The notes beneath the pieces were generated by a model, which made no database searches, was not told the origin of the DNA, and saw nothing but the letters and a program-made list of their open reading frames with translations. Shown here piece by piece: positions 9,391 through 15,840 of a DNA stretch of 34,085 nt. Numbering within the stretch: the stretch's first letter is position 1; every line of letters begins with the position of its first letter. The DNA is taken from the IMG/VR virus record IMGVR_UViG_3300046389_000068, positions 1-34,085 of that record; one strand, 5' to 3'. The translations under genes were made by a program, and so were the position numbers. This DNA is from a virus.

Positions 9391-10053
9391 TCATACAAGA
9401 ACACTAGTCTTTACGTTTAATGCTTTTTCTCTTGCTTCTACTTTGTCCTGCCACATTTTTCTTTGAGCTTTTGTTTGTCTACCTTGTGCTGGTTTTTTCA
9501 CCCCTACGGCTTCTGCTCGTTCTCTCCAATGCCTAGCCTCTCTCCGTTTCTTATTCCTAGCTTGTTTATCCTTTAGCTGTTTCATCTCTTGCCGTTTTGA
9601 GAGATTCTTTGGGGGTAATATGGGACGTTCTGGTAAGACTGTGAACTCAGGCTCGACTTCTTCAACTTCTGCATCAATTACGGCAATTTCTTGCATATCT
9701 GATGATTGAGTATTTAAGAACTTTTCAAATGGACTCTGATTATTTGCTACTTCCACTCTCTTAATGAGTTTACCAGAATGTTCTAGCACTAATCTACCAG
9801 CTTGAACATTACCAGCCTCTGCTTCTCGTATCATACTATGTAATACATTGGGCAGTTTAGCTCCAAATGTGACCATATACTTCTGATAAAATACCTCTAC
9901 AAACTCAGGGTCTTTCATCCAGTTATGGAGTGTAGCTTTTGTCACTCCGATTTCATTGGCAAGTTCTTCCATTTTAGTATTCGGATTGGATACAAGTATA
10001 TCAATTGTCCTAGCTTTCTCAGGTTTCCAGTTTGTGGGTAAATTAACACTCAT
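9391..10053 (-). CDS. terS: Terminase small subunit (TerS)
   Basis: A 220-residue protein. The ATG at 10053 has AAAAAGGA nine bases upstream; an earlier in-frame ATG at 10182 adds 43 unlikely residues and no binding site. Residues 17-46 form a helix-turn-helix (NPNTKMEELANEIGVTKATL) of the type in phBC6A51-like small terminases, followed by a helical oligomerisation region (VLHSMIREAEAGNVQAGRLVLEH) and a long basic tail rich in Lys, Arg and Gln. TerS binds the packaging site and loads TerL. It is placed alone, on the strand opposite to TerL, beside the phased repeat array, which is a good candidate for its site. Confidence 0.8.
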   Translation of the reverse strand: MSVNLPTNWKPEKARTIDILVSNPNTKMEELANEIGVTKATLHNWMKDPEFVEVFYQKYMVTFGAKLPNVLHSMIREAEAGNVQAGRLVLEHSGKLIKRVEVANNQSPFEKFLNTQSSDMQEIAVIDAEVEEVEPEFTVLPERPILPPKNLSKRQEMKQLKDKQARNKKRREARHWRERAEAVGVKKPAQGRQTKAQRKMWQDKVEAREKALNVKTSVLV

Positions 10054-10081
10054 TTCATATAGTCCTTTTTGGTTATGGTAT

Positions 10082-10111
10082 ATTATACAACCACTTGGTA
10101 CTTTTATACAA
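10082..10111 (-). promoter_or_regulatory. Putative promoter of terS
   Basis: On the minus strand TTGTAT (10111-10106) is followed after 18 bases by a perfect TATAAT (10087-10082), about 28 bases before the terS ATG. The -10 lies in the near-palindrome GTATATTATAC. Just upstream is the inverted repeat AGACT/AGTCT (about 10113-10126), a possible operator. Motif-based call only. Confidence 0.5.
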
Positions 10112-10296
10112 GAGACTTTATAGTCTATTATTTCATCTAAATCCAAATAAGGCATAATACATAGTATAAGACATACAAACATAAAACGGAGTTTTATTGG
10201 ACTTTCTTTTCAAAACTTTTTTTCTCAGCCCCATGCAAGACTTTGTTTTCATTTTATTTATGAGGAATGGCAGTTAACCAACACCTAAAAATCTTC

Positions 10297-10424
10297 ATAC
10301 GCCCCCATGAGCGTTTTGAGCGTGGCGTAGCCTGTGAGTAGGAGCGATATGAGCGTTTTAAAATTGGCGTAGTGCTGGCGTAGTGGTATTTACTTTTGGC
10401 GTATAGTGTGAGATGATTACGCCA
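10297..10424. repeat. Helically phased TGGCGTA / GAGCG repeat array
   Basis: TGGCGTA starts at 10323, 10365, 10376 and 10397, with an inverted copy TACGCCA at 10418-10424. The steps are 42, 11, 21 and 21 bases, all near multiples of 10.5, so the sites face the same side of the helix. GAGCG occurs at 10309, 10318, 10342 and 10351, giving two pairs 9 bases apart. ATGAGCGTTTT at 10307 and 10349 makes a 42-base unit. This is what a multi-subunit DNA-binding protein site looks like: packaging site for TerS (as in lambda cosB or SPP1 pac), replication iterons, or a control region. It is GC-richer than its surroundings. Confidence 0.7.
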
Positions 10425-10741
10425 ACCATTTAAATTACTACTCAAAAAAAATAAAATTGAAAACTTTTAAAGAATGCCAAATTTAAAATTGTTGTTGTTG
10501 TTCCCCCACTAATTGAGACTCATTATCATTAGATCGCATTTGGCTCTAAAATGCACCAAATTCGAGAGATATTGAATAGTCATAGATGTATTAATTAAAT
10601 GCTCTGATCTAGCCACCAGCAGAGTTTCACGAGGGTGAACATTCCTTAAAATTGCCCCGTTTTAAAGATTATTAAAAAAAGATGGTTTCTTATTGAGAAA
10701 GCATTAGGAATAATAAAAAAAAATAGTATAGGGGGAAAATA
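10425..10741. other. Non-coding region between phased array and early genes
   Basis: No credible gene on either strand: all frames are short and lack ribosome binding sites. Visible items are a (GTT)4 run near 10487-10500, an inverted repeat CTCTG/CAGAG (about 10602-10624), a small hairpin TTCAC-GAGG-GTGAA (10626-10639), and a copy of TATAGGGGGAAAATAAA (10727-10743) that also occurs in the capsid hairpin at 3765-3781. With the array next to it, this is the largest non-coding block of the genome and a natural place for a packaging site, an origin or an early control region. Confidence 0.5.
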
Positions 10742-10750
10742 AAATAAAAT

Positions 10751-10766
10751 TTGTTAAACTTTAACA
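10751..10766. repeat. Palindrome family, site 1
   Basis: TGTTAAA-C-TTTAACA (10752-10766), core GTTAAAsTTTAAC. Together with its flanks a 27-base stretch (10742-10768) is identical to 11352-11378, so it forms direct repeats around the gene at 10849. It lies 12 bases before a TTGACA. Candidate operator for the early promoter. Confidence 0.75.
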
Positions 10767-10778
10767 GAAAAAAAAGTA

Positions 10779-10810
10779 TTGACAAGGCCAAATATTATAA
10801 CCAATTTAAG
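10779..10810 (+). promoter_or_regulatory. Putative early promoter region
   Basis: A perfect TTGACA at 10779-10784 lies just after a palindrome and about 65 bases before the first early gene. The -10 is unclear: TATAAC (10797) is too close, and AATTTA/TTTAAG (10803-10810) are at 18-20 bases but weak. The position makes a promoter likely even though its -10 cannot be fixed by eye. Confidence 0.4.
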
Positions 10811-10848
10811 CCATGTTATTTAATTACAAATCAAATAAAGGATACGAA

Positions 10849-11367
10849 ATGTCGAATACTACATATAGTTTTAAGAAACCCACTAAAAGCGAAATAAAAG
10901 ATGTTTTAGAGCATGGTGTAATTGCCCAGCAATCATTGGACAAGATCACAACAACAATAAAAGCTGACATCTTCCACAGGAATGAAAAAAATCAAACTAA
11001 ATTAACAGAAACTTTTAATAATATCATGGAATCTGAAGATTCTCAATTAAAAATAGATGTTAAACGTTTTATTCGTAAACAATTGCAAACCATCATAAAA
11101 GCAAAAGCCAGCCAAGAACAGCTTTTGAACGGTAAAGAAAAAACCCATTCCATAACAGTAAAAAAAGTTAATAATTCTATGATAGATAATGTTGACGGAA
11201 TATATAAAGGCAATTTTAATGAATCTGATTATGGAAGATATGTTGTAGTAATTCAAGAAAAGCCAAAAGCTAAAGAAAAAACATTGGAAGAGTGTTTGCA
11301 GGAATTAATGAAAAAACATGAAGCTGATAAAAATCAAGTACTGGAGGCATTAAATAAAATTTGTTAA
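10849..11367 (+). CDS. Unknown early protein, charged and helical
   Basis: A 172-residue Lys/Glu-rich protein, first gene of the early unit. The ATG at 10849 has AAAGGA six bases upstream; an in-frame ATG at 10813 has no binding site. The N-terminal half is helical (KSEIKDVLEHGVIAQQSL), with a short beta-like middle (DYGRYVVVIQEKP) and a helical tail. No family is recognised. Its TAA stop lies within a palindrome, and the gene is bracketed by 27-base direct repeats, as if it were an exchangeable cassette. First early genes often target host functions, but nothing here shows a function. Confidence 0.75.
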   Translation: MSNTTYSFKKPTKSEIKDVLEHGVIAQQSLDKITTTIKADIFHRNEKNQTKLTETFNNIMESEDSQLKIDVKRFIRKQLQTIIKAKASQEQLLNGKEKTHSITVKKVNNSMIDNVDGIYKGNFNESDYGRYVVVIQEKPKAKEKTLEECLQELMKKHEADKNQVLEALNKIC

Positions 11368-11376
11368 ACTTTAACA
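11361..11376. repeat. Palindrome family, site 2
   Basis: TGTTAAA-C-TTTAACA (11362-11376). It supplies the TAA stop (11365-11367) of the upstream gene and is followed after five bases by the tRNA-like element. Same 27-base context as site 1. Confidence 0.75.
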
Positions 11377-11381
11377 GATTT

Positions 11382-11425
11382 GGGCAAATGGTTTTAGTTA
11401 GGTTCGATTCCTAACCTGCCCACCA
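11382..11425 (+). ncRNA. tRNA-like minihelix with encoded CCA (anticodon-less)
   Basis: A perfect T-arm is present: stem TTAGG (11398-11402) / CCTAA (11410-11414) with the canonical loop TTCGATT (11403-11409). After a 7-base acceptor strand ending in TGCCC (11417-11421) come a discriminator A and an encoded CCA (11423-11425). GGGCA at 11382-11386 pairs with TGCCC. Only about ten bases separate the acceptor 5' strand from the T-arm, so there is no anticodon arm and no true D-arm. It may be a deleted tRNA gene, a functional tRNA mimic that guides RNA cleavage, or a leftover attachment core. No integrase is seen. Confidence 0.65.
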
Positions 11426-11439
11426 AAAAAGGAAAAAAC

Positions 11440-11970
11440 ATGGTAACATATAACGACATAAAAAAAGATCAAGAATATAAAAATGACAGAGGCTGTTGCA
11501 CCGTTGTTGCTACTGCTATAGCTTGCCAAATACCTTTTAAAACGGCTCAAAATTACCTGTTTGAGCTAGGCAGGAAAAGACATCAAGGGTTTCACTTTTA
11601 CAGACATTTCAAAGCCATTGGAAAACAATTTGGGTATGATATAAAGACATATAGTCCTAAATTTGTAATGTATAAAGGGTTTTATTTTCAAGATAAAGAA
11701 TCTAATTCTTTAAACAAAAAACCATTAAAGAAAGCCACTTCTTTAACTGTTAATAATTGTATAAAACATTTACCAAGTGTAGGGACATTCGTACTTCATA
11801 TTAATGGACATGTCGCAACATTAAAAGATGGGGTTATTCAGGACTGGAGCCGAGGAAGACGATTTAGCATTTACAGGGTTTATAAATTTGAGAAAATACA
11901 AAAAATAAAAAAGAAAAATAAAACTAGCAAAATGTCTTCAGGTTATAATTTTTCACAGTTTATTAAATAA
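11440..11970 (+). CDS. Putative papain-like cysteine protease
   Basis: A 176-residue protein with AAAGGA upstream. The N-terminal motif DRGCCTVVATAIA (16-28) looks like a nucleophile helix with C20 (or C19). GHVATLKDGVIQDW (123-136) gives a catalytic His (H124) and Asp (D135). Order and spacing match papain-like or C39-like peptidases, including compact phage versions. The tail is Lys-rich. Being early and away from virion genes, it could act on host proteins or remove a small modifier; a virion maturation role is less likely. Catalysis is inferred from motif only; a transglutaminase-like activity is the main alternative. Confidence 0.6.
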   Translation: MVTYNDIKKDQEYKNDRGCCTVVATAIACQIPFKTAQNYLFELGRKRHQGFHFYRHFKAIGKQFGYDIKTYSPKFVMYKGFYFQDKESNSLNKKPLKKATSLTVNNCIKHLPSVGTFVLHINGHVATLKDGVIQDWSRGRRFSIYRVYKFEKIQKIKKKNKTSKMSSGYNFSQFIK

Positions 11971-15036: not shown

Positions 15037-15840
15037 ATGAAATTTGGATACTTCGGGTACATCCCATCTTATATTAGGCACAATACAGATTTGTTGCCTA
15101 TGGTAAAATTAATTTATGCAGAGATTACGGCAACCATGGAACAAGATGGTTATTGTAAGAAAAATAATTCTTACTTTATGAAAGTCTTAGGCATATCAAG
15201 AACTACAATATCAAGGGCAATCACAACCCTAAGAGAATCTAATTTAATATATATAGTGATTGAACAGGAGAAAACAACCAATAGATTTATAAATAGGTTT
15301 ATTACTCTTACCCTACCCCATGTAAGGGTGGGGGTAAACAATCAGATCAATATACCCCATGCTCTTGTGAGACAGGGGGGTACTGAAGTAGAGGGCGATG
15401 TAGTGCCTAATTCATCTAATGAAGGTGAGCAGACAGGAGGTACATTATTATATAATAATAATGATATAAGATATATATATAGTGATCGTGTAGGCACTAT
15501 TGAATGTAATAAATCAATCAATGAAAATCAGTTAGTATATTTGAAAAGAATTGTTTTAGATTTCTATACTACCCAAAGCAAAAACTTTCCCGAAATTGTT
15601 AAATCAGATTGGCACAAAGATAAAAATCTAACCAATGATAGTATTAATGTTTTGTACGATTTAATGACCATAGATAAGTGGGATGAGGGTAAGGTAAGGA
15701 ATGTTATAAATTGGATCGTTAAGGATAGTTTTTGGGCTTCTAGGTGCTATTCCTTACGAGTGCTTAGAGGTAAAGCATCCAATGGTCAAAGAAGGTTTAC
15801 AAATATGTATGCAAGTTACATCGATAAAGGGGGTAAGTAA
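15037..15840 (+). CDS. Replication initiator, phage O/DnaD-like winged helix
   Basis: A 267-residue protein with AAAGGAG eight bases upstream. The N-terminal part (about 1-90) is a helix-turn-helix: LLPMVKLIYAEITATM, YFMKVLGISRTTISRAITTL, then LIYIV as wing. Then come a low-complexity linker (about 95-150) and a C-terminal helical domain with WIVKDSFWASRCYSLRVLRG, which resembles the loader-contact part of phage replication proteins. It directly precedes a primase-helicase. The linker DNA carries a stem-loop and an AT-rich tract, so the gene may hold the origin, as lambda O does. It shares TAATG with the next gene. Confidence 0.75.
   Translation: MKFGYFGYIPSYIRHNTDLLPMVKLIYAEITATMEQDGYCKKNNSYFMKVLGISRTTISRAITTLRESNLIYIVIEQEKTTNRFINRFITLTLPHVRVGVNNQINIPHALVRQGGTEVEGDVVPNSSNEGEQTGGTLLYNNNDIRYIYSDRVGTIECNKSINENQLVYLKRIVLDFYTTQSKNFPEIVKSDWHKDKNLTNDSINVLYDLMTIDKWDEGKVRNVINWIVKDSFWASRCYSLRVLRGKASNGQRRFTNMYASYIDKGGK
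15308..15484 (+). other. Candidate replication origin inside the initiator gene
   Basis: Within the linker region of the initiator: a stem-loop with arms TTACCCTACCC (15308-15318) and GGGTGGGGGTAA (15326-15337), about ten pairs plus one wobble, loop CATGTAA. It is followed by G-rich runs on one strand near 15360-15390 and 15430-15440, then by a very AT-rich tract at 15442-15484. Lambda places iterons and an AT-rich melt region in the O gene. The match is in layout only; clear iterons are not seen. Confidence 0.35.

Follow-up and report, generated by a model that had tools for sequence, protein, structure and literature searches.

What function is served by the array of short, phased repeats that lies upstream of the small terminase gene (terS) of an uncultivated phage? 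The window, that is, the whole stretch of DNA analysed here, is the 34,085-base record of this phage, which is probably of marine origin. Both ends of the window fall inside one reading frame, as would be expected if the genome were circular or permuted. Family models identify TerL, the capsid protein, a primase-helicase and an initiator-like protein (RepO-like, 15037-15840), and the portal protein was named solely from its position after TerL because it matched no family. No DNA match to the window was found among GenBank phages, matches to TerS were weak only, and a search of genome contigs for hosts with TerL gave one weak match.

The gene terS is on the minus strand and the next gene, which is rightward, begins at 10813 or 10849. 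The interval between them is the largest gap in the list of open reading frames, so that its earlier description as the largest non-coding block is borne out save for a 63-codon open reading frame at 10254-10445. No known RNA family was found at 9900-11600. The start of TerS is best placed at ATG 10053, and not at 10182, since this start is conserved in relatives and the promoter TTGTAT-18-TATAAT is found just upstream of it. Measured from this start codon, the array lies about 245 bp upstream of TerS, in agreement with the ~250 bp given in the preliminary description. The structural model of TerS is of low confidence (mean pLDDT 67); its top Foldseek match is 2AO9 (prob 0.99, E 0.06, E-values to this structure not being significant), and a weak sequence match was found too. 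The features of the locus are collected in Table 1.

Table 1. Positions in the window of the features found in and around the block upstream of terS
Feature	Position	Strand	Remarks
TGGCGTA site 1	10323..10329	+	Invariant in 8 near-identical phages
TGGCGTA site 2	10365..10371	+	Invariant in 8 near-identical phages
TGGCGTA site 3	10376..10382	+	Invariant in 8 near-identical phages
TGGCGTA site 4	10397..10403	+	Invariant in 8 near-identical phages
TGGCGTA site 5, inverted	10418..10424	-	Invariant in 8 near-identical phages
GAGCG pair 1 (9-bp repeat; GAGCG at 10309/10318)	10309..10322	+	Pair unit recurs in relatives
GAGCG pair 2 (GAGCG at 10342/10351), 33 bp after pair 1	10342..10355	+	33-bp lattice recurs in relatives
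Conserved core GGGCGTATG	10296..10304	-	GGGCGKATG once per genome here, in 15/22 records; variants elsewhere
Conserved stretch CATTCCTCATAAATAAAATGAAAACAAAGTCTT, core to terS	10237..10269	-	Alignment of divergent relatives
Small hairpin ATAAAACGGAGTTTTAT	10181..10197		Seen in the sequence; relatives also have ATAAAGC..GCTTTAT
terS promoter	10082..10111	-	-35 TTGTAT 10106-10111, 18-bp spacer, -10 TATAAT 10082-10087; conserved in relatives
terS	9391..10053	-	Start ATG 10053; recognition helix VTKATLHNW = residues 37-45
Conserved gene, other side of block	10849..11367 (start in the list of open reading frames 10813)	+	Function unassigned

The repeat array in the window

The array is real, and chance falls far short of explaining how its sites are clustered and phased. 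The spacings of 42, 11, 21 and 21 bp that had been reported for the five TGGCGTA sites are correct, although the inversion of the fifth site had been omitted, and the four GAGCG sites do form two 9-bp pairs, which lie 33 bp apart. Over the whole window, TGGCGTA is matched 7 times versus 0.83 expected, a number reached in none of 100 shuffles. When a sequence of 34 kb was simulated 40 times with a Markov model, no 7-mer appeared five times within 130 bp (maximum 4), and the unit GAGCGN4GAGCG is found twice versus 0.01 expected. The helical phasing proposed in the preliminary description was also recovered: coherence at 10.5 bp, a period picked after seeing the data, is R=0.989, and 0 of 20,000 random placements reach this value.

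A sixth related site, the core GGGCGTATG, is present at the terS side of the array and had been overlooked. In the window's species, represented by 8 phages, the six GGCGTA-type sites contain no variable column out of 42, versus 11 of 67 columns in the spacers.

Conservation of the block among relatives

Searches of viral contigs with TerS and TerL gave more than 100 loci, whose whole records were then taken, and the comparison set consists of about 35 nonredundant relatives. The gene order is common to these relatives, and the wider block compared among them corresponds to about 10054-10812. No relative outside the window's own species has TGGCGTA repeats, single copies being present in a few of them; therefore, the TGGCGTA array would represent no more than a local addition to a site of wider occurrence. 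Most relatives share the single core GGGCGTATG and the conserved stretch that runs from it to the terS promoter, and the distance from the core to the terS -10 is fixed in the group with short leaders. The core is a candidate cut or core site. The hairpin ATAAAACGGAGTTTTAT shows a compensating change in relatives (seen by eye, uncounted).

GAGCG pairs are present in about half of the lineages and, in each relative searched, are restricted to this block. Across 34 nonredundant blocks, same-strand spacings of 9, 33, 24, 42 and 66 bp dominate.

Other repeats were also observed upstream of terS. In this region the relative L016, which has no GAGCG pairs, carries a different array of four copies of ACATTGAC at 10-13 bp spacing. 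In L168, a second repeat, ACTTGAC, is found farther upstream, 270-450 bp before the terS -10, in five copies mostly at ~50-54-bp spacing.

Covariation of GAGCG pairs with the TerS recognition helix

A comparison of the block in related phages for covariation with the helix-turn-helix of TerS had been proposed in the preliminary description. Differences in pair number were compared with differences in the helix across 23 nonredundant lineages. Pair number follows the 7-residue recognition helix (Mantel r 0.62) and not the rest of TerS (r -0.07), the partial p for the helix being 3e-4 once the rest of TerS is removed. Sliding windows along TerS give one sharp peak at residues 35-45, with values of about 0 elsewhere, and this peak falls on the second helix of the helix-turn-helix predicted for TerS. 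When all lineages are taken, the family-wise p over the TerS windows is 6e-4; when the comparison is limited to one clade, it is 0.007. Residues 1-28, whose codons are placed between the array and the helix in the DNA, give an r of 0.04; therefore, the association is not adequately explained by simple linkage or by the transfer of a neighbouring segment along with the array.

Three to four pairs are present in 5/5 lineages of the VST helix class; pairs in the company of a helix of another class are found in the window, L007 and L083. Two sister phages differ both in helix and in array, G043 having VAVSTLQRW and three pairs and G020 having VTRATIHNW and none. In a tree from which the helix was left out, the VST class changes at least 4 times, and in the well-supported independent contrasts the array follows the direction of the helix in 3/3 (sign test p 0.25). 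Independent helix switches number only 3-4. Since three contrasts cannot reach significance and the permutation ignores phylogeny, the covariation is good evidence and not conclusive evidence. In the proposed comparison, pair number tracks the TerS helix across relatives but not within the helix class of the window itself: when only the 18 non-VST lineages are considered, the window being one of them, the association at the helix is absent, so that for this particular phage the argument is made by family.

Other proteins encoded in the genome were used as controls. The maximum window r is 0.33 for RepO, 0.29 for gene 10813 and 0.37 for TerL, versus 0.58 for TerS. The TerS peak is near the top of genome-wide scans and is not unique: an unfiltered scan of all conserved proteins gives 0.75 for TerL and 0.71 for both TerS and a tail-region gene, and the scan requiring variable windows gives 0.66 for TerL, 0.58 for TerS and 0.51 for the next protein. 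Residues 392-400 of TerL were considered as a second covarying element and rejected, because on inspection they look clade-specific. The product of gene 10813 was likewise rejected as an array-binding protein, since it has no family match, its predicted fold has no match in the PDB and it shows no covariation.

The covariation with the TerS helix favours recognition by TerS, and hence a cos or pac site, over replication iterons, which had been the second choice in the preliminary description. In a replication origin, the repeats would be iterons bound by the RepO-like initiator, and it is true that phased direct repeats are found beside AT-rich DNA in a genome that encodes initiator-like and primase-helicase proteins. 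However, RepO is encoded about 4.7 kb away, variation in its sequence is not matched by that of the array (full-length r 0.17), and inspection by eye revealed no DnaA box. We consider an origin at this position very improbable.

Possible regulatory alternatives and other elements

The repeats could also be operators of a transcriptional control region, bound by a phage or host regulator of terS and of the divergent rightward genes. The block lies between divergent genes and contains a Fur-box-like element (TGATAATGAGTCTCA, 10514-10528, minus strand). Sigma-70-like promoters over the core are present, by a count made by eye, in about 9 of the 16 lineages without pairs versus 1 of the 18 with pairs and, in a second phage family, a GAGCG pair, GGCGT and several Fur-box-like palindromes occur together in the 5' region of an unrelated gene. 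Nevertheless, the covariation is with the TerS helix, RepO and gene 10813, the other two proteins compared that might be connected with the block, showing none, and a conserved promoter dedicated to terS lies 200-240 bp away from the array. On balance, transcriptional control as the main function of the array appears unlikely.

Tail genes and a metallophosphatase are common to the second phage family and the window, so that the two families might have shared hosts. No shared terminase gene was detected, and the occurrence of a GAGCG pair in a family with different terminase genes counts against the packaging reading. The GAGCG pair, together with Fur-like boxes, in the non-coding DNA of both families could be due to sites for a host nucleoid or regulatory protein, common to unrelated phages of one host. 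Such sites do not predict that, from one sister phage to the other, array and TerS helix switch together, and most members of the second family have single pairs, without the 33-bp lattice, so we give this explanation little credit.

Additional elements were observed. The palindrome TGTTAAA(C/G)TTTAACA, or close variants of it, is present in seven copies (10753, 11363, 12866, 13971, 16017, 19750 and 29950), several of them just upstream of rightward genes, and looks like the operator of a phage regulator. Near-identical direct repeats AAAATTTGTTAAACTTTAACAG at 10744-10770 and 11354-11379 flank gene 10813-11367. At 11381-11425 there is a tRNA-like element, made up of an acceptor stem and a T-arm, that ends in CCA and lacks both the D arm and the anticodon arm, which folds at -13.5 kcal/mol (z -1.7) and was not called by ARAGORN or Rfam; among the loci compared, its exact sequence is found only in the window. 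Members of the second phage family, such as L169, L187 and L199, carry 3-6 Fur-like boxes in a non-coding block.

The block as a probable packaging-initiation site

The block upstream of terS is rather likely to be a packaging-initiation site, its repeats being recognition elements for TerS; within this reading, TerS binding, the cut and the mode of packaging, cos versus headful, are what we infer. A TerS-binding packaging site had been the first choice of the preliminary description on account of the array. The GAGCG pairs, which follow the helix across relatives, support that choice indirectly; the TGGCGTA array does not support it as stated, as it belongs to the window's own species only.

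A TerS oligomer, with several helix-turn-helix domains, would dock on repeats that lie on the same face of the DNA, namely the 9-bp GAGCG pairs on a 33-bp lattice, to which the window's own species would add TGGCGTA at intervals of about 10.5 or 21 bp, with inverted copies at the borders. The docked TerS would position TerL to cut near the core GGGCGTATG or near the adjacent conserved stretch. As is the case in SPP1, TerS bound at the block may in addition control the promoter of its own gene.

Contig ends were inspected as candidate physical ends. Among 48 small contigs, about 18 stop at a point 6-377 bp upstream of the TerS start, and gaps beside the core are present in two scaffolds. These contig ends were rejected as physical ends, since their offsets vary by 0-30 nt and borders between conserved and variable DNA break assemblies; ends and gaps fall within about 30 nt and not at one base, and assembly could explain them. 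Contigs of the relatives break at many places, and two have end overlaps in tail genes. Many break points are compatible with permuted genomes, although the assembly of circles would look alike.

Comparison with known packaging systems

In phages lambda, 21 and N15, cosN and cosQ are kept while the R sites of cosB and the recognition helices differ together (PMC4669245). The block described here is similar to a lambda-like cos in that it adjoins terS, combines a conserved core with variable repeats, and has repeats that go with the TerS helix across relatives, though not within the helix class of the window. It differs in that the repeats stand on a 33-bp lattice beyond and over the core; most of them are on its far side and not between core and terS, as the cosN-terS layout of lambda would have it. 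In addition, the contigs of relatives run through the site, cohesive ends being only a candidate here.

The pac site of SPP1 covers the terS promoters and the terS start, and TerS is bound at pacL and pacR (PMC6316719). As in the pac of SPP1 and SF6 (pacL-pacC-pacR), the site is located on or next to the terS promoter and has direct repeats (PMC6316719, PMC4737164): the conserved block spans from the core to the terS -10, and the repeats adjoin it. However, SF6 TerS was reported to bind DNA in vitro regardless of the repeats (PMC4737164), in contrast to the joint change of repeats and recognition helix seen across the present relatives. The conserved block is rich in A-tracts, but the phasing of an SPP1-type bend was rejected, since power is spread over 8-13 bp instead of being specific to 10-11 bp, and no signal was found in the window at 10-10.75 bp. 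The solved structure 2AO9, which is the phage protein phBC6A51 of Bacillus cereus in nine chains, resembles the TerS model, with matches that are not significant. Since cohesive ends are only a candidate, most repeats are beyond the core and phased A-tracts were not found, the site is filed neither as a lambda cos nor as an SPP1 pac. By analogy, it would work like the lambda and SPP1 sites if the packaging reading is right.

Implications for genome recognition by small terminases

Genome recognition by small terminases has been stated to be unresolved: pac-type TerS proteins bind weakly and with no sequence preference in vitro, and packaging needs specificity (PMC9611059). We tentatively suggest that a natural TerS-DNA recognition code is at work in this family, sister phages exchanging helix variants along with the corresponding arrays, whose 33-bp lattice is fixed; this proposal is possible rather than likely. 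If true, such a code would mean that a small terminase, possibly of the ring type, recognises DNA in a sequence-specific manner and at multiple sites. The switching of helix and array among close relatives provides ready-made matched and mismatched pairs with which the question of recognition may be addressed.
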